Assembly (NCBI GenBank): GCA_030428885.1 | Contig: JAUIEJ010000005.1 | Span: 310,001 to 374,000, forward strand | Origin: Gemmatimonadota bacterium | GTDB taxonomy: Bacteria > Gemmatimonadota > Gemmatimonadetes > Longimicrobiales > Gaopeijiaceae | DNA: 64,000 bases | Direction: 5' to 3' | Shown here: piece by piece, positions 35,567 through 63,185 of the stretch | Layout of the letters: each line of letters begins with the position of its first letter | Position numbering within the stretch: the stretch's first letter is position 1 | The notes under the pieces: generated by a model | What the model was told of the DNA's origin: nothing | Database searches by the model: none | Seen by the model: only the letters and a program-made list of their open reading frames with translations | Made by a program: the position numbers and the translations under genes

Positions 35567-36706
35567 ATGTCTTTCCGTGCGTCGTCCGGCCGTTGGGCCG
35601 TCGCCTCGTTCCTCCCGGTCGTTGCGGCCGGGTGCCTCGGTGCCGCTCCTCTGGCGGCTCAACCCGCGGTGGACCCCCTGGGGCCCGACCCCGCCGGGAT
35701 CTTCACCTTCGAAGCCCTGGCCGAGGGGGTGTGGGTGGCCCGGGTCCTCGCCCGGCCCGAGGCGTACGCCTTCGCCAATTCCCTGGTGGTGGAGGGCGAG
35801 GACGGCGTGCTGGTGGTGGACACCCAGCAGAGCCCGACCGCCGCCCGAGCCCTCATCGACCGCATCGCCCTGTGGACGGATCGACCCGTGCGCTGGGTGG
35901 TGAACACCCATTGGCACGGCGACCACGTGTACGGTAACGTCGCCTACCGAGACGCCTCTCCCGGTGTCCGATTCCTGGCGGCTCCGGGCACCGTGGAGGG
36001 CATGAGAGGTCCGGGAGCCCGCCAGCGAGCCGAGGAACTCGAGACCCTGCCCGGCTCCATCCGGGACCGGGAGGCGTGGCTCGCCGCGGGGCGCCTTCCC
36101 GACGGTCGCGTCCTGGACCCCGACCTCCGGGATCAGGTGGCCTATTCGGCCCGGCTCCGGGCGGCGTACCTCGCCGAGCTCCGGGCCCTGGAGACGGTGG
36201 AGCCCGAACCGTTCGTGGACCGGCGGCGCACGCTGGATCTCGGCGGGCGGTCCGTGGAACTGGTGCCCCTGGGCCCGGCGCACACCGCCGGCGATCTGGT
36301 GGTTCGGGTGCCCGACGCCGGGGTGGTGGCGGTGGGCGACCTCCTGGAGGCCACGGCGGCTCCCTGGATCGACGGGGCCGCGAGCCTGGTGGGGTGGCGG
36401 GACGCCCTGGGGGTGTTGGGGGATGCCCCCGAGACGGTGCGGGTCCCCGCCCATGGCGACGTTCAGAGGGAGGGTTGGCTCCTTGCGGGGGAACGGGCCC
36501 TGTTCGACGACCTGGTGGCCGAAGCCCGCCGGGCGGTGGCGGAAGGGTGGTCGCCGGAGCGGATCCGCTCCGAGGCGCTCCTGGAAGAGCACCGGGCGTT
36601 CCTGGCCCGCATCGGCGCCGGCGAGGGGGCGTTCGAGCGATGGCGGGCCGAGGCCCTCTCCCGAGCCGTGGACGAACTGCGGGCGGGGGAAGGCGGGACC
36701 CCCTGA
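35567..36706 (+). CDS. Exported metallo-beta-lactamase-fold hydrolase
   Basis: A 379-residue protein with an N-terminal signal sequence (about 32 residues; VAAGC could be a lipobox, LAAQPA a signal peptidase I site). The metal-binding motif NTHWHGDHVYGN is at about residue 113, and later metal ligands are near LGPAHTAGDLVV and VPAHGDV. The C-terminal third is helical. The layout resembles B3-like or SoxH/quinoprotein-relay-associated MBL proteins of the periplasm. The substrate is unknown; beta-lactamase activity should not be assumed. Confidence 0.83.
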   Translation: MSFRASSGRWAVASFLPVVAAGCLGAAPLAAQPAVDPLGPDPAGIFTFEALAEGVWVARVLARPEAYAFANSLVVEGEDGVLVVDTQQSPTAARALIDRIALWTDRPVRWVVNTHWHGDHVYGNVAYRDASPGVRFLAAPGTVEGMRGPGARQRAEELETLPGSIRDREAWLAAGRLPDGRVLDPDLRDQVAYSARLRAAYLAELRALETVEPEPFVDRRRTLDLGGRSVELVPLGPAHTAGDLVVRVPDAGVVAVGDLLEATAAPWIDGAASLVGWRDALGVLGDAPETVRVPAHGDVQREGWLLAGERALFDDLVAEARRAVAEGWSPERIRSEALLEEHRAFLARIGAGEGAFERWRAEALSRAVDELRAGEGGTP

Positions 36707-36935
36707 CGGGGGATTCCGGTCAGACGCGGACGGCGTCTCCCCAGACGACGATGGCGTGGCGCATGGCGGATTCGGGAGAAGAGGGTTCCGGTGCGGGTCG
36801 CCCCGCAGACGCCTTCCCGGGAGAGCAACCGCCGTGCCAGGAGTGCCGGAACGGCCCAAAAGGATGCAGTTGAATACTTTAGGGTGCCTGTGGCCCGGTC
36901 CGTGGCGGGTTCCCGAACCGTCACATGTTCCGAAT

Positions 36936-36971: not shown

Positions 36972-38366
36972 TCAGCCCAGGAGTCCGTGCTTGCGACGCT
37001 TCTCCCAGAGGTTCTTCCGGGAGATCCCCAGGCTCTCGGCCGTGGCCCCGACGTTTCCGTCGTGGGCCTCCAGGGCGTCCACGATGTAGCGTCGTTCCAC
37101 CTCTTGAAGCGTGAGACCCCGTTCCACCCCCCCGGCGAGGGTGGGGCCCTCGGTGGGGGCGGGGGCTCCCGATGCCGGGACCGGCGACCCTCGCCCCAGA
37201 GCCGGAAGGGCGTCGGCATCGATGCGGCCCTGGGGAGAGAAGAGAAGGGCCCGCTCCACGGCGTTCCTCAGCTCCCGGACGTTCCCCGGCCAATGCCACG
37301 CCCGCAGGCGATCCAACGCCGCGTCGGTGAACCCGGCGAAGGGGCGCCCGGCCTCCCGGGCCAGTTCCCCGGCCAGGGATCGTGCGAGGGTGGGGACGTC
37401 GGATGCGATCTCCCGCAGCGGCGGAAGGGTGTGGGTGGCCACGGAGATGCGGTAGAAGAGGTCTTCCCGGAAACGCCCCTCTCCCACCGCCACGGGGAGA
37501 TCCCGATTGGTGGCGGCGATGAGGCGGAGGTCGACCTCGATCTCCCGGGTGCCTCCGAGCCGGCGAAACCGGCGGGACTCCAGGAAAGACAGGAGCTTCA
37601 CCTGGAGTTCCAGAGGCAGCTCACCGATCTCGTCCAGGAAGAGGGTGCCGCCGTCGGCGATCTCGGCCAGTCCGGTCTTGTTCTCCCGGGCGTCGGTGAA
37701 GGCGCCCTTCATGTAGCCGAAGAGCTCGGCCTCCAGGAGCTGGGGCGGAAGGGCCGCGCAGTTGATCTCCACGAACCGGCCGTGGGGTGCGGCGCCCGAG
37801 AAGTGGATGGCCCGGGCGGCGAGGTTCTTGCCCGTTCCGCTCTCTCCCAGGAGGAGCACCGTGGTGCGGGGCATCCCGGCGAGCCGTTGGACGAACGACC
37901 GGGCCTCGGCGATGCGCGGATGATCGCCGAGAAGGGCGTCGGCCGAGAAGCGTTCCCGCTGTCGGGCCCGGGCGGACCGGGCCTCTTCCAGAAGGGGGCG
38001 GTGAGCCAGGGCGCGCCGGAGGAGCGTGGTGAGCTCCCCGACGTTCACGGGCTTGGTGACGTATTCGTTGGCGCCGGCCTTGAGCGCCTCCACCGCAGAC
38101 TCGAGCTCGCCGTCGGAGGTGAGGACGAAGATGGGCAGGTCCGGCGATTCGGCCCGGAGGGCGTGCGTCACCTCGATGCCCGTGAGTCCCGGCATGTGGA
38201 GATCGGTGAGCACGGCGTCGGGCCGGGTCTCGGTGGCGGCCTCCAGGAATTCCCGGGGGTCGTCGAACACCCGGGTCCGGAATTCGCCCGCCCGGCCCAG
38301 GTTCGCGCGAAGAAGCTCAGCGAACGGCAGGTCGTCGTCGAGAATGTAGACTTGGGGATTCACCAT
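36972..38366 (-). CDS. NtrC-type sigma-54 response regulator with GAFTDA variant
   Basis: A 464-residue regulator with three domains. The receiver has VYILDDDLPF, VLTDLHMPGLTG and YVTKPVN. The AAA+ domain has Walker A GESGTGKN, Walker [14 protein letters not shown] and the R-finger region. The Fis-type helix-turn-helix is at the C-terminus (VGATAESLGISRKNLWEKRR). The sigma-54-contacting loop reads GAFTDA instead of the usual GAFTGA. The ATG at 38366 follows GGGAG. It is divergent from a stand-alone HPt gene 55 bp away, suggesting a phosphorelay rather than a cognate kinase. Confidence 0.9.
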   Translation of the reverse strand: MVNPQVYILDDDLPFAELLRANLGRAGEFRTRVFDDPREFLEAATETRPDAVLTDLHMPGLTGIEVTHALRAESPDLPIFVLTSDGELESAVEALKAGANEYVTKPVNVGELTTLLRRALAHRPLLEEARSARARQRERFSADALLGDHPRIAEARSFVQRLAGMPRTTVLLLGESGTGKNLAARAIHFSGAAPHGRFVEINCAALPPQLLEAELFGYMKGAFTDARENKTGLAEIADGGTLFLDEIGELPLELQVKLLSFLESRRFRRLGGTREIEVDLRLIAATNRDLPVAVGEGRFREDLFYRISVATHTLPPLREIASDVPTLARSLAGELAREAGRPFAGFTDAALDRLRAWHWPGNVRELRNAVERALLFSPQGRIDADALPALGRGSPVPASGAPAPTEGPTLAGGVERGLTLQEVERRYIVDALEAHDGNVGATAESLGISRKNLWEKRRKHGLLG

Positions 38367-38421
38367 CGCATGCTCCCGTCCGAAGGGCGACCCTTCACGA
38401 CTCGGGGCCGAAGATACCTCC

Positions 38422-38853
38422 ATGATCGACCCGATGCTTCCGAACCACCGGTCCGAACCGGATTTCATGCCCCGCCTGCGTCGGATCTTCGCCGACGGAC
38501 TTCCCGAACGTGTCGCGCGCATGCGGCGGGGGCTGGACGGCGTCGCGGCCGCCGTGGCGGCCGGAGTTCCACCCGAGGCCGACCACCTGGAAGAGCTCTT
38601 CCTGGCGTCGCATTCCCTCAAGGGCACGGCTCCCGGCTTCGGAGCGCTGGACCTGGGCACCGACGCGGGCACCCTCTCGGCCATCGCTCAGTCGTGGACC
38701 CCCGAGGCTCCGCCGTCGCCCGAGGGGCTGGAGCGGGCCCGGTACCTCATCGACCGCATCGAGGCGGCCTGCCGCGAGGTGATCGTGCGGACCGACGCCG
38801 GATCCGGAGGGGAGGCCACCCCGGATCCGGCGTCCACGTCCCGGCCTCAGTAG
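38422..38853 (+). CDS. Stand-alone HPt phosphotransfer protein
   Basis: A 143-residue helical protein with the HPt motif [18 protein letters not shown] and phospho-accepting H64. HPt proteins shuttle phosphoryl groups between receiver domains. No kinase domain is present. It is divergent from an NtrC-type regulator, and two hybrid kinases whose C-terminal receivers lack an HPt lie at 21.3-26.4 kb, so it could connect them; this link is inferred. The C-terminal tail is Ser/Pro-rich, and the 3' end overlaps ahcY convergently by seven bases. Confidence 0.82.
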
Positions 38854-51697: not shown

Positions 51698-53343
51698 ATG
51701 GATTCCCCTGCCCGGTCCCCCCTCCTGGATCCCCACGAGATCCTGCGCTGGGTGTTCTTCGGCCGCCTCACCCTCCTGGCGGCCATCGCCGTCGGTGCGG
51801 TCGTCGGTTCGGCCGGCACGCCGGGCGGCAACGCCGTCCAGATCGCCGGCGGCGCCCTGGGGGTGGCGGCCGTGTTCACGGCGTGGTCGTTCTGGCGCCT
51901 TCGGAGGGAGCCGGCGGACCCCAGTCGGTGGTTCCTGGGCGTCCAGGTGGCGGTGGACATTCTGGCGGTGACCGTGGTGGTGCATCTCACGGGCGGGCCC
52001 GCCAGTGACTTCGCCCCGGTCTACATCCTGGTCATCGCCGAGGCCGCCCTTCTCCTTCCCCTGCCCGGGGGTGTGCTGGCGGGGGTCCTGGCCAGCGTGC
52101 TGTTCGGCATCGACGCGGTGTGGGTTCAGCAGGGCAACCTCGATGCGGCCCTGGGACTCCAGGTGGGCCTCTTCGCCCTGGTGGCCGTGGCCATCGGCAT
52201 CCTCGGCGACCGACTCCGGCGAACCGGTATGCGCCTGGGGGCCGTGGAGTCCGAGCTCGAACAGCTTCGCCTCGACACCTCGGTCATTCTGGACACCCTG
52301 GCCACCGGCGTCCTGACCCTGGACGACCGCGGACACCTGCTCTACCTGAATCCGGCGGGTGCCCGGCTCCTGGGGGTGGACGCCTCCACCTGGAGCGGGC
52401 AGGCCGTCATGGCCCGCCTCGAGGCCATGGCCCCGGGCTTCGGGGCCGTGCTCCGGCGGTCGGTCGAGGACGGGGTCCCGGAACGTCGGTTCAAGACCCA
52501 CGTGGAGCGGGACGGCCGTCGGGTGACCCTGGGCGTGTCCACGACCGTCATGGATCGGGGGCAGACGGGACCCCACTCGGCCACGGCCCTCTTCCAGGAT
52601 ATCACCGACCAGGAGGCCCTGACCCTCCTCACCCGGCGGGCGGACCGGCTGGGGGCGGTGGCGGAGCTGTCGGCGTCCCTGGCCCACGAGATCAAGAATC
52701 CATTGGCGTCCATCCGATCAGCGGTGGAGCAGTTGGGTCGAGGGGTGAAGGAGTCCCAGGATCGGGAGGTGCTGGAGCGCCTGGTTCTGGCCGAATCCGA
52801 TCGTCTCAGCCGGCTCCTCAGCGAGTTCCTGGATTTCTCGGGACTGCGCATGGGGCGACAGGAATCGGTGGATTTCGCCGACCTGGTGGAGCGGGTGGTG
52901 GAGGTGGTGCGCCAGCATCCCGACGCCCTGGATCGGACGGTGACGGTGGAGTGCCGGCGGCCCCCGGGCGAGGCCCCGCTGTCGGGTGATGCCGACCTCC
53001 TCCACCGGGCCGTGTTCAACCTGGTCCTCAATGCCGTGCAGTTCTCGGGCGATGCTGGACGGGTGGAGGTGGAGCTGCGGAGGGTCCCGGGGCAGGACGT
53101 GCCCGGTCCCCCCGACGCCCAGTCGGCGTGGCGACTCCGGGTGCGGGACTCGGGTCCCGGGATCTCCCCCGACGACGCGCAGCGCATCTTCGACCCGTTC
53201 TTCACCACCCGACGCGGGGGGAGTGGACTGGGCCTGGCGGTGGTGCACCGTGCCGTGGAGGCCCACGAGGGTGCGGTCCTGGTGGGGGAGGCCCCCTCCG
53301 GCGGCGCCGAGTTCACGCTCTTCCTGCCTGCAGAGGACACCGC

Positions 53344-53347
<4 letters not shown>
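51698..53347 (+). CDS. pilS: PilS-like sensor histidine kinase
   Basis: A 549-residue kinase with six N-terminal membrane helices (about residues 15-175), the layout of PilS. A PAS domain (about 205-310, [20 protein letters not shown]) and HisKA with H330 ([20 protein letters not shown]) follow. The HATPase has [29 protein letters not shown] and [18 protein letters not shown]. In Pseudomonas, PilS senses pilin in the membrane and controls PilR. The stop overlaps the start of the activator gene by four bases. About 190 bp upstream are non-coding. The pilus context comes from pilin genes 6 kb downstream in the same direction. Confidence 0.85.
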
Positions 53348-54701
<1,354 letters not shown>

Positions 54702-54705
<4 letters not shown>

Positions 54706-55613
54706 GCGGCATGTCCAGCGACCAGACTCGCACGCCCCCCGAGGATCCCCGCCCCCGCCGTGCCTGGGATCGCCTTCCCTGGGACGACGTGATCGTCTCG
54801 GTGGTGATCCCGGTCTACAACGAACGCCACACGGTGGAAGCGCTGCTGCGCAAGGTCGACGAGGTGGGCCTCCACACCGAGGTGGTGGTGGTGGACGACG
54901 GATCCACCGACGGCACCCGGGACATCCTGCCCGACCTGGAGACCGAGGGGCTCATCGACACCCTGGTGTTCCAGCCCCGCAACCAGGGGAAAGGGGCGGC
55001 GCTCCGAACCGGGTTCCAGCACGCCACCGGCGACGTCGTGGTGGTGCAGGATGCGGATCTGGAATACGACCCCACGGAGTTCCCGATCCTGCTGGAGCCG
55101 ATCCTGGCGGGGAAGGCCGATGCGGTGTACGGCAGCCGCTTTCTGGGAGGGGCCCATCGGGTGCTGTTCTTCTGGCACAGCGTGGGCAACCGCTTCCTGA
55201 CGCTCCTCAGCAACATGTTCACCGATCTCAACCTCACCGACATGGAGACCTGCTACAAGATGGTTCGGCGGGACCTTCTCCAGTCGTTGCCCCTCTCGGC
55301 GGACCGGTTCGGCATCGAGCCCGAACTGACCGCGCGGCTGGCCCAGTCCGGTGCCCGGCTGTACGAACTGCCCATCAGCTATCACGGGCGGTCGTACGCC
55401 GAGGGCAAGAAGATCGGGTGGCGCGACGGCGTGTCGGCCATCTGGTCGATCCTGAAGTTCAACCTCACCGGTCCCCGGGCCTCTCGCTGGCAGCCGCCGG
55501 CCGTGCCCATGTGGGAGGCCCGAAAGGCGCTGGAGGGGCTGGCCTCGGATCCCGCCGAGGGAGAAGGGGCCTCCGATCAGGGACCCCCGGACAGCGCTCT
55601 CGCTCCGTCATGA
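54702..55613 (+). CDS. GT2 polyprenyl-phosphate-sugar synthase-like glycosyltransferase
   Basis: A 303-residue GT-A-fold enzyme related to dolichol-phosphate mannose or glucose synthases (DPM1/ALG5-like), which charge a polyprenyl phosphate with sugar on the cytoplasmic side. Motifs are [61 protein letters not shown] (metal-binding DxD) and [18 protein letters not shown]. No membrane helix is evident. It overlaps pilR-like and the first TMTC gene by four bases each. It could supply the lipid-linked sugar to the two GT-C enzymes behind it; the sugar itself cannot be read. Confidence 0.87.
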
Positions 55614-57448
55614 CCCGCCGGGCCCCCCTGCCGGGGCCGGGAATCGGGGTGCTGGGGGGCATCCTCCTCCTGGCCGTGACGGTCTACGCCAACAGCCTGG
55701 GCAACGGCTTCGCGTACGACGATCAGGCCATCATCGTCGAAAACCCCCTGGTCACCGCCGGAGACCCCGGAGCCGCCCTCACGGCGCCGTACTGGGCCGG
55801 TGAAGCCGGGGTGGGCCGCCTGTACCGACCCACGACCCAGGCGGCGTTCGCCCTCCAGTGGCGCCTGTTCGACGGGGGCCCGGCGGGTTTCCACGCGGTG
55901 AACGTCGGCCTCCACGGCCTGGCGTCGGTGCTGGTGGGGCTCCTGTGCGGATGGCTGGCCGGAGTCGGACGATCGCCGGACGACTCCCGGACCCGGGCCG
56001 TGGTCCGCGGGGGCGCTCTCGCGGGAGGGGCTCTGTTCGCGGTCCATCCCGTGCACGTCGAAGCCGTGGCCAACGTGGTGGGGCAGGCCGAACTCTGGGC
56101 GGCGGTGGGGGTGCTGGGGGCGGTGGAGGTGCATCGGACCACCCGCTTCGCCTCGGGTGCGACGCGCATCGCCGGAACCCTCGCCATGGGACTCCTCTTC
56201 GCCCTGGCCTTCGGGGCCAAGGAGATCGCCGTGACGCTGCCGGCCCTCCTTCTCCTGATGGAAGGGGCCGAGAGCGGGAGCGTCCGAGGTCTCCTGGACC
56301 GCCTTCGGGCGGAGGCCCCCCGGGTGCTGCTCCTGGCGGCGGTGGGCTCGAGCCTGCTCGTGGCCCGGGCCCACGTCCTGGGGACCCTGGCCGGAGAGGA
56401 CGTGACGCCGGTGTTGTGGGGGATGGGACCCATGGAGCGGGTGCTCCGGGTGCTGCCGGTCTGGCTCGAGTACCTGCGCCTCATGGTGTGGCCCGTCTCG
56501 CTCTCGGCCGACTACGACCCCGGGGTGATCTACCCGGCGGCGGGCCCCGGGATGATCCAGGTGGTGGCCGGTGCGGCGGTGCTCCTGGCCGTGGTGGCGC
56601 TGGCGGTGGGGGGATGGCGACGGGCCCGGGGAGGAGCCGTGGCCGCGGCGTGGTTCGGCCTCGCCGTGCTCCCCGTCTCCAACCTCCTGCTCCCCACGGG
56701 GTCGATCATGGCGGAGCGCACGCTCTACCTTCCGTCCGTGGGACTGGCGCTGGGGCTGTCGGCGCTGGTGGCCTGGGGCACGCTCCGGGCGGCGGATGGT
56801 CGACTGCCGCGCCGAGCGGTCTGGGCCCTGGGCGGCGTGGTCGCCCTCATGGCCGCCGGGACCGTGGTGCGGAACCCCACCTGGTTCTCCAGCTTCACCG
56901 TCATGGAGACCCTCGCCCGGGACCACCCCGAGTCGTGGCGCGCCCGGATGGCCCGGGCCCAGGGACTGGCCCGGGCCGGCGAGGACGCCCAGGCCGCCGA
57001 GGCGTACCGCGCCGGCATCGAGGCCCTGCCGACCCGCTTCGATCTGGTGAGCGAGACCGGCGCCTTCTTCAAGGAGCGGGGCCGCCTCGCCGAGGCGCGC
57101 CCCTACCTGGAGTCGGCGGTGGTGCTTCGCCCCGGGCGACCCTCCGGCTGGATTCTCCTCACCGAGCTGGAGCTTCTGGAGGGACGGTTTCGGGAGGCCC
57201 ACGCCACCGCCGCACGGGGGATCGGTCGGGCCACCGAGAGCGGAGAGCTCTGGGCCCTCCTCTCGGAGGCGTACGCCGGAGGCGGGCTCCTGGATGCCAG
57301 CATCCGGGCCCGTCGGACGGCCCTGGTGCTCGAACCCGACGCGGCGCCGTGGTGGAATCGCCTGGCCGAACTTCTGGAGGCCGCGGAGGGGGATCCCACC
57401 GAGGTCGCCGAAGCCCGACGCCGAGCCGCGGCGGCGGGGGAACGGTGA
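55610..57448 (+). CDS. TMTC-like membrane glycosyltransferase with TPR tail (first copy)
   Basis: A 612-residue protein with about eleven membrane helices (residues 10-440) and a TPR C-terminus (about 445-600). The first loop has FAYDDQAII with D37 and D38, matching the acidic pair of GT-C enzymes. [19 protein letters not shown] and [13 protein letters not shown] closely resemble the signatures of animal TMTC proteins (HPIHTEAVAGVVGRAELL type), which O-mannosylate cadherins. Together with the preceding GT2 this suggests polyprenyl-phosphate-sugar-dependent O-glycosylation in the periplasm. Starts by ATGA overlap and ends overlapping the second copy. Confidence 0.8.
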
Positions 57449-59292
57449 ACGACGCGCGCCGGGGAGGCTGGGTGGCGGCCCTGGTCGCCCTGGTGGTCTT
57501 CCTCCCGGCACTGCGCAACGGCTTCGCCTACGACGACATCCTCATCATCGTCGAACACGACGCGCTCCATTCCCTGGGCGGTGTCCTGCGGAGCTTCGGG
57601 TCGCCCTGGTGGCCCGGCCCCGAGGGCGTGTCGTTCGGGCTGTGGCGGCCTCTGGCGTCGGCGGCGCTGGGGGTGCAGTGGTGGGTGTTCGGCGGGGCGC
57701 CGTGGGGATTCCATGGGGTGAACCTGCTGCTCCACGCCACCGCCGCCCTGCTGGTGGTCCGGATCGGTGCCCGGGTCCTCCCCACCCGGGTCGCCGTGTG
57801 GGCGGGCCTCGTCTTCGCGGTCCACCCGGTCCACGTGGAGGCCGTGGCCAACGTGGTGGGCTTCGCCGAACTCGCCGCCGCCGTCCTCGTCCTGGCGGCG
57901 GTGGGGATCGTGGTCCGGGATTCCGAAGGCCCGGAGGGGGTCCCGCCCGTGGGTCCGGGGCGGATCGTGGCCCTCGGGGCCCTCTATCTGGCCGCCTGCC
58001 TCACCAAGGAACACGCCATCGTCCTTCCGGCCCTGCTCTTCGTGGTGGAGGCGGCGCGCCACCGCTGGACCGTGGCCGACCTGCCGGCGGTGGTTCGGGG
58101 ACGGGCGGGGCTCTACCTCGCCCTGGCGATCGTGGCCGCGGCGGTCCTGGCCGCCCGGGTGGCGGTGCTGGGAGAGGTGGCGGCGCCTCGCCCGCCGCTG
58201 GGCGCGGGCCTTCTGGACGAGATCCCCCGTGTGCAGACCGTGGCGGCGGCGGGGTTCCACATCCTCCGCCTTCTCGCCGTCCCCCTCACCCTCTCCCCCG
58301 ACTACGCACCGGACGTGATTCCGGTGACCACGGTCTGGACCGGACCGGGGATCCTGGCCGTGGTCGTGACCCTGGGACTCCTGGTGGCCGCTCTCGTGGC
58401 CGGCCGCCGCGGCGGACGCACCGGTGCCGCCCTTCCCCTGGGGCTGGCGTGGTTCGTTCCCGCCGTGCTGCCCATCTCCAACGTCGTCTTCCTCACCGGG
58501 GTGCTGGTCGCCGAGCGGGCCCTCTACCTCCCGTCGGTGGGCATCGCCTGGATGTTCGGAGCCGGTCTGGCCTGGGCGCTGGGGCGGGGAGGCCGGGTGG
58601 GCGGGCTCCTGGTGCTGGTGCTCGGAGGACTCTGGGTCGGTCGCACGGTCACCTACGTGCCCGTCTGGGAGAGCACCGACACGGTGTTCGACCACATGGT
58701 GGCTACCGTGCCCCAGTCGGCTCGATCCCAGTGGGTTCTGGGTGACGCCCTGCTGGGGGCGGGCCGGTCCGACGAAGCCGTGGCGGCCTACGCTCGGGCC
58801 CTGGGGCGCCTCGGCGACGAGCCGCCGTTCCTGACCCGATCCGCGGGCCGTCTCCAACAGGCGGGTGAGGTGGAGGTGGCGCGGATCCTGGCCCTCCGCG
58901 CGGTGGACGTGGATTCCTCGGGATCGGCTCCTCGACTCCTGGCCGTCCTGGCCGCCGGGGAGGCCGACTGGGAGGCCACGGTGCGGTGGTCCCGGGCCAC
59001 CCTGGAAGTGCGTCCCCACGATGCCGTGGCCGGGCACCTCCTCTCCGTCGCCCTCACGGAACTCGGGCGCTATCCCGAGGCCCGGGCCGTCCGCGAAGAA
59101 CTCCTGGCCCGGGACCCGGGCGACGCCTGGCAGCCCTGGTACTGGCTCGTGGAGCTCCGGGCCCGCACCGGGGACACCCTGGGAGCCCGCGCCGCGGCGG
59201 ATTCCGCCCGGATCCGGGCCCGGGATCCCTCCGCCCGGTCGGTCATCGACAGTCTGGTGACGGCCCTCACCGGTTCCATCGAACCGTTGTAA
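57445..59292 (+). CDS. TMTC-like membrane glycosyltransferase with TPR tail (second copy)
   Basis: A 615-residue paralogue of the preceding protein. The GTG overlaps the previous TGA by four bases. Helices cover about residues 8-425. The motifs FAYDDILIIV (D30, D31), [20 protein letters not shown] and ERALYLPSVGIAW match the first copy, but the TPR-like C-terminal part is more divergent (LGDALLGAGRSDEAVAAYAR, LSVALTELGRYPEARAVREE). The two tails may select different acceptors. It is the last gene of the pilSR-GT2-TMTC chain, 200 bp before the first pilin. A TPR-membrane scaffold with no catalytic role is the alternative. Confidence 0.8.
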   Translation: MNDARRGGWVAALVALVVFLPALRNGFAYDDILIIVEHDALHSLGGVLRSFGSPWWPGPEGVSFGLWRPLASAALGVQWWVFGGAPWGFHGVNLLLHATAALLVVRIGARVLPTRVAVWAGLVFAVHPVHVEAVANVVGFAELAAAVLVLAAVGIVVRDSEGPEGVPPVGPGRIVALGALYLAACLTKEHAIVLPALLFVVEAARHRWTVADLPAVVRGRAGLYLALAIVAAAVLAARVAVLGEVAAPRPPLGAGLLDEIPRVQTVAAAGFHILRLLAVPLTLSPDYAPDVIPVTTVWTGPGILAVVVTLGLLVAALVAGRRGGRTGAALPLGLAWFVPAVLPISNVVFLTGVLVAERALYLPSVGIAWMFGAGLAWALGRGGRVGGLLVLVLGGLWVGRTVTYVPVWESTDTVFDHMVATVPQSARSQWVLGDALLGAGRSDEAVAAYARALGRLGDEPPFLTRSAGRLQQAGEVEVARILALRAVDVDSSGSAPRLLAVLAAGEADWEATVRWSRATLEVRPHDAVAGHLLSVALTELGRYPEARAVREELLARDPGDAWQPWYWLVELRARTGDTLGARAAADSARIRARDPSARSVIDSLVTALTGSIEPL

Positions 59293-59408
59293 AACTCCAG
59301 CATCTTGCAAATTCCAAGAGGAATCGACGCCAGAGACCGCAGTCGGAGTCCGGGTGTGTGTGCCGTAAGTCTTTGTTTTTGAGTGAGTTGCGTGGTTGTG
59401 GCACAGTG

Positions 59409-59423
59409 TGGCCCTCCCCTTGC
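59409..59423 (+). promoter_or_regulatory. Sigma-54 (-24/-12) promoter of the first pilin
   Basis: TGGCCCTCCCCTTGC matches TGGCMC-N5-TTGC with the strict GG-to-GC spacing. Transcription would start near 59435, about 58 bases before the pilin ATG. An A/T-rich stretch (TCTTTGTTTTTGAG, about 59368-59381) just upstream could be an IHF or activator region. No other gene is seen in 59293-59492. Confidence 0.75.
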
Positions 59424-59492
59424 CCCTACTTCGGGGCGCGAATCGAGTCCCACCTCACTCAGTACCACACCCCCCCGACCAAGGAGTCGACC

Positions 59493-59870
59493 ATGCGGGA
59501 CAACAAGGGTTTCACCCTCATCGAGCTGCTCATCGTCGTGGTGATCATCGGCATTCTCGCCGCCATCGCCATTCCGAAGTTCTCGGCCACCCGGGAGAAG
59601 GCGTACGTTTCCGCCATGAAGTCCGATCTGAAGAACCTGGCTTCGCAGCAGGAGATCTACTACTCGGACAACTACTCGTACACCACCAGCGCCACCGCCC
59701 TCGGCTTCGCCCAGTCTCAGGGCGTGACCGTGGCCATCAGCGCCGCTACGAGCACCGGCTGGGGCGCTTCGTCGACCCACAGCGGCACGCCGTCGACCTG
59801 CGCGGTCTTCTACGGCACCGCCTCCGCGGTTGCTCCGGCCTCGATCGCCGGCGCCGTGACCTGCAACTAA
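59493..59870 (+). CDS. pilA: Type IV major pilin (PilA-like), first copy
   Basis: A 125-residue prepilin. The short leader MRDNKG is cut before FTLIELLIVVVIIGILAA, with Glu at +5, by a prepilin peptidase not in this window. The helix is followed by a conserved segment (SDLKNLASQQEIYYSDN) and a Ser/Thr-rich C-terminal domain with two Cys, probably a disulfide loop. AAGGAG lies eight bases before the ATG. Expression from the sigma-54 promoter upstream fits PilSR control. Mature length (119) is on the short side, like Myxococcus- and Geobacter-related pilins. Confidence 0.93.
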   Translation: MRDNKGFTLIELLIVVVIIGILAAIAIPKFSATREKAYVSAMKSDLKNLASQQEIYYSDNYSYTTSATALGFAQSQGVTVAISAATSTGWGASSTHSGTPSTCAVFYGTASAVAPASIAGAVTCN

Positions 59871-59908
59871 GCTAGGTAGCACGCAGGTCCGGGCTCGACC
59901 GGATGGAC

Positions 59909-59949
59909 GGGGAGCGTGGCCCGGCGGGAAACCCCGGGTCACGCTCCCC
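59909..59949 (+). terminator. Hairpin between the two pilin genes
   Basis: GGGGAGCGTG/CACGCTCCCC plus an inner CCCGG/CCGGG around a nine-base loop gives a 16-bp stem (with one G-U). No U-tract follows. It may end pilA transcription or let only part of it continue into the second pilin. Confidence 0.7.
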
Positions 59950-60097
59950 TCCGCGTTTCCGGAGGCCCGAGCTGGATCGAGTTCCATGGGCCGCGTCGCG
60001 GGAGCCCCCCCGTCCCCGCCGACCGGCCGCCCCACAGACACCGAACCCACCGCCGTATTCCCGGGGGGAGTGCCCTCCCGAACCAGCGAGGTTGACC

Positions 60098-60493
60098 ATG
60101 CGCCGCTCCACCAACCGCGGATTCACCCTGATCGAACTGTTGATCGTCGTGGTGATCATCGGGATCCTGGCCGCCATCGCCATCCCGAAGTTCTCCTCCG
60201 TCCGTCAGAAGTCCTTCCGGTCCACCATGATGTCCGACCTGAAGAATCTCGCGGCCAACCAGGAGATCTACCACAACGCCAACTTCACCTACTCCACGTC
60301 CATGACGAATCTCGGAGCGGTCCAGTCCGAGGGAGTCACGGTGACCATCAACGCCGGCACCAACACCGGTTGGGCCGCCACGGCGTCCCACTCCGGAGCC
60401 CCGGGTGAGCAGTGCGGGGTCTACCATGGGTCGGCGGCTGCGGCGGGAGGCTCGCCGGGCGCGGTGGAAGGCGTCATCGCCTGCACGTACTAG
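60098..60493 (+). CDS. Type IV pilin, second copy
   Basis: A 131-residue prepilin paralogous to the first. The leader MRRSTNRG precedes FTLIELLIVVVIIGILAAIA. The middle (MMSDLKNLAANQEIYHNANF) and C-terminal domain (GVTVTINAGTNTGWAATASH) align well with the first copy, with two Cys near the end, but the last loop differs (SAAAAGGSPGAVEG). GAGG lies six bases upstream of the ATG. I see no good -24/-12 promoter of its own in 59950-60097, so it may be read through from the first gene. Confidence 0.9.
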   Translation: MRRSTNRGFTLIELLIVVVIIGILAAIAIPKFSSVRQKSFRSTMMSDLKNLAANQEIYHNANFTYSTSMTNLGAVQSEGVTVTINAGTNTGWAATASHSGAPGEQCGVYHGSAAAAGGSPGAVEGVIACTY

Positions 60494-60582: not shown

Positions 60583-61829
<1,247 letters not shown>

Positions 61830-61833
<4 letters not shown>

Positions 61834-63185
61834 AGATCCTCGTCATCGACGACGACCGGGGCCTGCGCAGGTCCCTGTCCATGATCCTGGACGACGCCGG
61901 GTATTCGGTGGTCCAGGCGTCGGACGGCGCCGAGGGGTTGCAGACGGCCCTCTCCGAGTCCCCGGCCATGATCCTCTGTGACGTGCGCATGCCCGAGATG
62001 GACGGTCTCGAGTTCCTCGACCGGTACCGGGATGAGGGTGGCGAAGCCCTCGTCCTGGTCATGACGGCCTACGGGTCGTCGGAGTTGGCGGTGGAGGCCA
62101 TGAAGAAGGGGGCCTACGACTACATCCCCAAGCCGTTCGGCGCCGACGAGGTGGTCCTCACCGTTCGGAAGGCCGAGGAGCGGGAGAACCTCCGCAAGGA
62201 GGTGGGGCGTCTCCGGAGCCAGGTGCGGGCCGATCGTCGCTTCGGCGATCTGGTGGCCCGCTCCGCCTCCATGATCGAGGCCCTGGAGGTCGCCACCAAG
62301 GTCGCCCCCCACGAGTCGCCGGTGCTCCTCTCCGGGCAGAGCGGAACGGGGAAGGAACTCGTGGCCCGCCTGATCCATCGGGAGAGCCCCCGGGCCGACG
62401 GACCGTTCGTGCCGGTGAACTGCGGCGCCATTCCGGAGAATCTCCTGGAGAGCGAGTTCTTCGGGCACGTCAAAGGGGCCTTCACCGGAGCCGATCGGGA
62501 CCGTGTGGGGCTCTTCGAGACCGCCCGGGGCGGAACGCTCTTCCTGGACGAGGTGGGGGAACTCCCGGCCAGCCTCCAGGTGAAGCTGCTCCGAGCCCTC
62601 CAGGAGCGGGAGGTCCGACCCGTGGGCGGTAACCAGACCCAGACGGTGGACGTGCGGATCATCGCCGCCACCAATCGGGACCTGGACGAGGCCGTCGCCG
62701 AGGGCGGGTTTCGGCAGGACCTCTACTACCGCCTGGCGGTGGTCCCCATCCACCTCCCCGCTCTCGTACGGCGGGCCGAGGAGATTCCCGAGCTGGCGCG
62801 GCACTTTCTGGAGCGTCACCAGGAGCGCATGGGCCTCGAGGTGGAGGGGATCGCCCCCGACGCCATGGAGGTGCTGCTCTCCTACCCCTGGCCCGGGAAC
62901 GTCCGGGAACTGGAGAACGTGCTGGAGCGGGCCCTTGTGCTCACCGAGGGCCCCAAGCTGTCGGTGGACGATCTGCCCCACAACGTTCGAAACCCCTCCC
63001 ATGGCGCCATGGTCTCCACCGACGACGACGATCTGTCGGTGAAGCGGCGGTTGGCCGAACTGGAGCGCCAACTCATCCAGCGGGCCCTGGAACGGACGTC
63101 GGGCAACAAGACCCAGGCGGCCGAGCTCCTCGAACTGAGCCCCCGGGCCCTCCGCTACAAGATCCAGGACTACGGCCTGGCCTGA
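61830..63185 (+). CDS. NtrC-type sigma-54 response regulator
   Basis: A 451-residue activator. The receiver has ILVIDDDRGLRRSL, D51 in MILCDVRMPEMDG and YIPKPFG. The AAA+ domain has GQSGTGKE, GAFTGA and [13 protein letters not shown], and the Fis-type helix-turn-helix is NKTQAAELLELSPRALRYKI. Walker A is GQSGTGKE rather than GESGTGKE, a mild variation. GTG start by overlap with the kinase gene. This is a second sigma-54 activator in the pilin locus; its target could be the pilins upstream or the pseudopilin genes downstream. Confidence 0.92.

Follow-up and report, generated by a model that had tools for sequence, protein, structure and literature searches.

A predicted sigma-54 promoter and a conserved promoter-close dyad before a type IV pilin gene of Gemmatimonadota

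Introduction

Which promoter drives the first of two tandem type IV pilin genes in this Gemmatimonadota genome, and which regulator would open it, are the questions raised by the window studied here (the whole 64-kb stretch of DNA that was analysed). Pseudomonas, Myxococcus and Geobacter are all known to transcribe pilin genes from sigma-54 promoters under PilS-PilR control (PMC6058289, PMC6211767, PMC2725144). The Gemmatimonadetes have very few cultured species (PMC10581226), and our literature search returned nothing that treats Gemmatimonadetes, sigma-54 and type IV pili together. An initial sequence-only reading of the window had proposed a well-spaced sigma-54 promoter before the first pilin, and had held that this site connects two nearby NtrC-type regulators to the pilin directly. 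Here we examine that proposal against the rest of the genome and against related genomes.

Results and discussion

Genes of the pilin locus

The first pilin gene (59493–59870, + strand) encodes a 125-aa protein with an N_methyl domain, probably the major pilin, for which the best NCBIfam match is the Myxococcus-type PilA, at a score below that model's cut-off. The second (60098–60493, +) encodes a 131-aa type IV pilin and has neither sigma-54 site nor dyad upstream of it. A strong G+C-rich hairpin without a T-run follows the first pilin (59909–59949, +); the region 59868–59990 folds at -74.5 kcal/mol (z -5.1), and a scan of the pilin region for T-run terminators found none. The hairpin may protect or end the pilin mRNA, and similar sequence is seen at the equivalent place in at least two members of the genus.

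Two NtrC-type activators with intact loops flank the pilins, just as had been read from the sequence. On the upstream side lie a PilS-type sensor kinase (51698–53347, +), with 6TM_PilS (42.3 bits vs a cut-off of 27), PAS, HisKA and HATPase_c domains over cut-off, and a PilR-type response regulator of the NtrC family (53344–54705, +; Response_reg, Sigma54_activat and HTH_8) with a GSFTGA loop. Downstream are a second sensor kinase, HK2 (60583–61833, +; HAMP, HisKA and HATPase_c), and a second NtrC-family response regulator, RR2 (61830–63185, +), with a GAFTGA loop, both of which adjoin the pilins in relatives as well. The REC, AAA+ and HTH_8 domains of both flanking regulators are intact. The locus therefore has a six-helix PilS-type kinase beside an NtrC-type regulator near a pilin, as expected of PilS-PilR pilin control, and also a second NtrC-type regulator with its kinase by the pilins and kept in relatives, as expected of a Myxococcus-type locus. 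The interval between pilR and the pilin (54711–59292) encodes a GT2 glycosyltransferase and two TPR-bearing multi-helix proteins; the glycosyltransferase gene remains a neighbor of the pilin also where the regulators are absent, a position that suggests pilin glycosylation.

The -24/-12 element and the predicted start

Sigma-54 promoters follow the consensus TGGCACG-N4-TTGC, with GG at -24 and GC at -12. The sequence TGGCCCTCCCCTTGC at 59409–59423 (+) contains all eight TGGC/TTGC bases and places GG (-25/-24) and GC (-13/-12) as TGG-N8-TTGC, the exact sigma-54 spacing, as the sequence-only reading had claimed. Taking the C at 59423 as -12, transcription is predicted to start at 59435, a G, which gives a 58-base 5' leader (59435–59492, +), in accord with the length of about 58 bases first estimated, and AAGGAG at 59481–59486 stands ahead of the first-pilin ATG at 59493. 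The 5.39-Mb genome (23 contigs) encodes 18 strong Sigma54_activat (AAA+) domains and a single RpoN (Sigma54_DBD match, E 1e-63), so that the sigma factor whose presence had been proposed as a check is indeed there.

Taken by itself, the bare -24/-12 motif is weak evidence, because the pattern TGGC-N7-TTGC is not enriched genome-wide (115 matches vs 201 for the reversed control) and has four exact copies within the window. Genome-wide enrichment was accordingly dropped as an argument. From the genome-wide density, arithmetic gives an expectation of about 0.001 matches per 85-base upstream stretch on one strand. Since the motif alone does not go beyond chance, the case for the promoter rests on relatives.

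As a separate observation, the window's best match to the sigma-54 consensus is TGGCACGGCGGTTGC at 36825–36839 (-), between an activator gene (36972–38684, -) and a convergent metallo-hydrolase gene (35567–36706, +), with only a 14-codon ORF downstream. This site possibly drives a small RNA or peptide from sigma-54; an activator with an ncRNA target is known in D. vulgaris (PMC4641369).

Conservation of the promoter in relatives

The search for the pilin covered 58 genomes from the bacterium's own genus, family and order. TGG-N8-TTGC occurs in 16 of 29 first-pilin upstream regions, against 0.34 after dinucleotide-preserving shuffling, and each of the other gaps from 3 to 14 occurs in 0–2 regions. 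With a site called at seven or more of the eight key bases, the enlarged set has a sigma-54 site before 33 of 47 first pilins vs 1.27 (maximum 5) in shuffled upstream regions, and before the later (second) pilins of the tandem it is found once in 26. The aligned relatives give TGGNCC-N5-TTGC as the -24/-12 element of the clade. The rpoN gene does not discriminate among the relatives, because all but one of them carry it (57/58). Conservation had been suggested as a check on the site, and these counts bear it out: exact spacing, order-wide conservation of both position and sequence, absence before second pilins and the presence of rpoN all favor a sigma-54 promoter for the first pilin, and the arrangement is also missing where both neighbouring activator systems are absent (see below).

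A conserved dyad close to the promoter

Alignment of the relatives' upstream regions on the promoter showed an inverted repeat, TAAGTC-N-TTGT-N3-ACAA-N-GACTTA, further upstream. The copy at this locus is the 25-bp TAAGTCTTTGTTTTTGAGTGAGTTG (59366–59390, +; -69 to -45), a candidate binding site for an NtrC-type activator, and in one relative (G008) the dyad is almost perfect (TAAGCCGTTGTAAAACAACGACTTA). Its first base lies 43–44 bases before the TGG in the aligned upstream regions, and it is the sole strongly conserved element upstream of -45 within the aligned region. The best dyad falls 41–44 bases before the -24 box in 29 of the 33 promoter-bearing loci, compared with 2.6 (maximum 7) in region shuffles, a count for which the consensus was derived partly from the tested loci. 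A consensus-free measure of self-complementarity placed the palindrome peak at 43, with 4.56 pairs vs a shuffle maximum of 4.09 (300 trials); among the 16 held-out loci alone, where the test is weaker, position 43 ranks second. The same layout is present at pilins outside the motif set (G006, G020, G025 and the named genomes L133, L134, L135 and L159), and in three sister-family genomes (G034, G052 and G056) the best dyad is at 53–54, about one helical turn further. As judged from these alignments, the promoter and upstream dyad together are kept in place by evolution, and the dyad probably holds an activating protein.

Like a typical sigma-54 upstream activating sequence, the dyad is an inverted repeat before the -24/-12 element that suits a Fis-type HTH dimer. 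Typical sequences of this kind, however, lie at least 100 bases upstream (PMC4641369; 100–250, PMC6615313), whereas only about 18 bases separate the end of the dyad from the -24 box, and this distance hardly varies, so that the conserved dyad is not placed as a distant enhancer that works by looping from some 100 bases or more upstream; an additional site may lie beyond it. Because it is close to the -24 box and its distance is nearly fixed, an activator bound there would probably act at short range from one helix face. For the claim that the promoter site itself connects the regulators to the pilin, the promoter alone is insufficient, and the conserved dyad at 59366–59390, which the sequence-only reading had missed, is the better link.

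Co-occurrence with the two-component systems

PilR orthologues (E ≤ 1e-120) were found in 44 of the 58 relatives, and the closest named relatives of RR2 are in Gemmatimonadota genomes, with up to 87% identity. Pilin-like genes with possible sites accompany a few of the distant relatives of RR2 found in other phyla. Orthologues of PilR and RR2 are jointly absent from G009, G012, G015, G018, G026, G028, G029, G030 and G032. The pilin locus was examined in 40 genomes: promoter and dyad occur together in 27 of the 32 that have one or both systems, and in 1 of the 8 that lack both (Fisher p 3e-4, a guide only, as these are related species). Two of the eight regulator-less genomes had no recognised pilin start, and the sole arrangement among the eight is a weak, displaced match. 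G044 and G013 have the regulators and lack a clear promoter-dyad arrangement at the pilin. On this pattern of presence and absence, co-occurrence ties the promoter to the two-component systems.

Proposed mechanism and alternatives

The explanation that we favor, and hold to be very probable as a whole, is that the first pilin has a sigma-54 promoter at 59409–59423 that is opened by PilR or RR2 acting from the dyad. RpoN polymerase would bind 59409–59423 and wait there as a closed complex until one of the two neighboring NtrC-type regulators, PilR or RR2, in its phosphorylated form, occupies the dyad at 59366–59390. Probably acting over a short distance and from a single helix face, this regulator would open the complex with its GAFTGA-type loop and ATPase, and transcription would begin near 59435. 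The opening of sigma-54 closed complexes by the ATPase of NtrC-type regulators is established for the protein family. The same circuit probably also controls a surface-polysaccharide sugar transferase, and it may control a large lipoprotein as well.

As to which regulator binds, the choice between PilR and RR2 could not be made from co-occurrence, both having been lost together. PilR (53344–54705) stands an even chance of being the direct activator, with RR2 acting elsewhere, such as at further pilus genes, or indirectly, as NmpR does in Myxococcus: its partner kinase carries the PilS six-helix domain, pilA is a direct target of PilR activation in both Pseudomonas and Geobacter (PMC6058289, PMC2725144), and the dyad here weakly resembles the PilR sites of Pseudomonas in containing GTCT, an element named as one of their hallmarks (PMC6058289). 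PilR is, however, far from the pilins in G040, G046 and G054, yet the site is kept there, and in those genomes RR2 is the nearer regulator. That RR2 (61830–63185) binds the dyad directly and PilS-PilR is auxiliary is a tentative but serious option, as HK2-RR2 follows the pilins in nearly every site-bearing relative, including sister-family genomes with PilR elsewhere; against it, gene order by itself is weak evidence, the joint loss of PilR and RR2 does not single RR2 out, and a second system has no precedent as the activator of pilA.

Two other readings would take the regulators off the dyad or sigma-54 off the pilin. We consider it improbable that the -24/-12 element is real and the dyad serves a different factor, for example a DNA-bending protein or a repressor, with the activator bound elsewhere. 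Such a role would suit a site that is nearer the promoter than most activator sites, at a near-fixed distance unlike that of a movable enhancer, but in D. vulgaris the distance from a sigma-54 promoter to the closest activator site is mostly no more than 100 bases (PMC4641369), and the dyad is the one strongly conserved element in the aligned region upstream of -45, has the inverted-repeat form that fits a Fis-type HTH dimer, is missing where the regulators are missing, and accompanies sigma-54 elements at another gene with the same spacing. Still further from likely, to the point of being very hard to credit, is that the 15-mer is a chance match and a sigma-70-type promoter transcribes the pilin: the pattern is frequent genome-wide by chance, but its conservation, gap specificity and absence before second pilins speak against this, and a scan of the pilin upstream region found no sigma-70-like site.

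Other candidate targets

A sequence-only model of the dyad and promoter was used to scan the genome, and it ranked the pilin first (E 8e-10) and the region upstream of a PF02397 sugar transferase next (E 0.05). The latter (contig C10, dyad from 326830) has TAAGGCGCATGTTGGTAACGACTTG 42 bases before TGGACCGCGCCTTGC. The layout recurs before a related sugar transferase at 42–43 bases in G001 and G003 of the same genus and in the more distant G013, and in weaker form before such a gene in G004; L120 (G000:C10:326830) and L117 (G003:C272) are sugar transferase loci with a dyad and -24/-12 element. Before a lipoprotein gene on contig C5, whose product has prealbumin-like and CarboxypepD_reg domains, TGGCACGCCTCTTGC is found with TAAGTCGTTGT 40 bases upstream, an arrangement conserved in G001 and G003. 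This lipoprotein promoter was demoted from a certain member of the regulon to a candidate, its second dyad half being weak and its spacing 40; the locus (L124, G000:C5:20182–20128, -) has an open frame of 1606 aa. A small cell-surface regulon consisting of the pilin, the sugar transferase and perhaps the lipoprotein is likely on these matches, and the pilin and surface polysaccharide may share one regulator. Elsewhere in the genome, a further sigma-54 activator gene (G000:C11:135458–137560) immediately precedes a second PF02397 sugar transferase.

Comparison with known systems

The locus shares with the pilA/PilS-PilR system of P. aeruginosa a sigma-54 pilin gene, an NtrC-type regulator and a kinase with six membrane helices (PMC6058289). 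Unlike that system, a second kinase-regulator pair flanks the pilins here, and a single conserved dyad close to the promoter, in which the Pseudomonas hallmark TGT-N11-AGA was not seen, is the candidate activator site. In Geobacter sulfurreducens, as here, pilA adjoins pilSR, and the sigma-54 promoter, located there by 5'-RACE (PMC2725144), is here predicted; the Geobacter consensus, TTGGCACGGTTTTTGCT, is not the same as the clade element TGGNCC-N5-TTGC. Myxococcus xanthus likewise has two NtrC-type regulators, PilR and PilR2, in one pil locus, both required for pilus-dependent motility, and PilR uses a sigma-54 promoter at its pilA (PMC6211767); gene order and phylum differ from those here. 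A sigma-54 pilin promoter in this organism therefore extends an already known type, and the unusual part is the close, near-fixed spacing of the activator site. A more sweeping combination, in which an order-wide, face-locked proximal dyad (at 41–44, or at 53–54 in a few sister-family members) would take the place of a looping enhancer and two co-conserved two-component systems would serve one circuit of pilin, surface-polysaccharide transferase and adhesin-like lipoprotein, is a possibility that we put forward with considerable doubt.

Conclusion

The analysis would extend sigma-54/NtrC control of pilins to the Gemmatimonadota and names a candidate binding site for the activator. The small regulon predicted here agrees with a proposed role of sigma-54 in controlling the exterior of bacteria (PMC3162934), and the close, near-fixed spacing of dyad and promoter makes short-range sigma-54 activation without looping a testable possibility in these bacteria.
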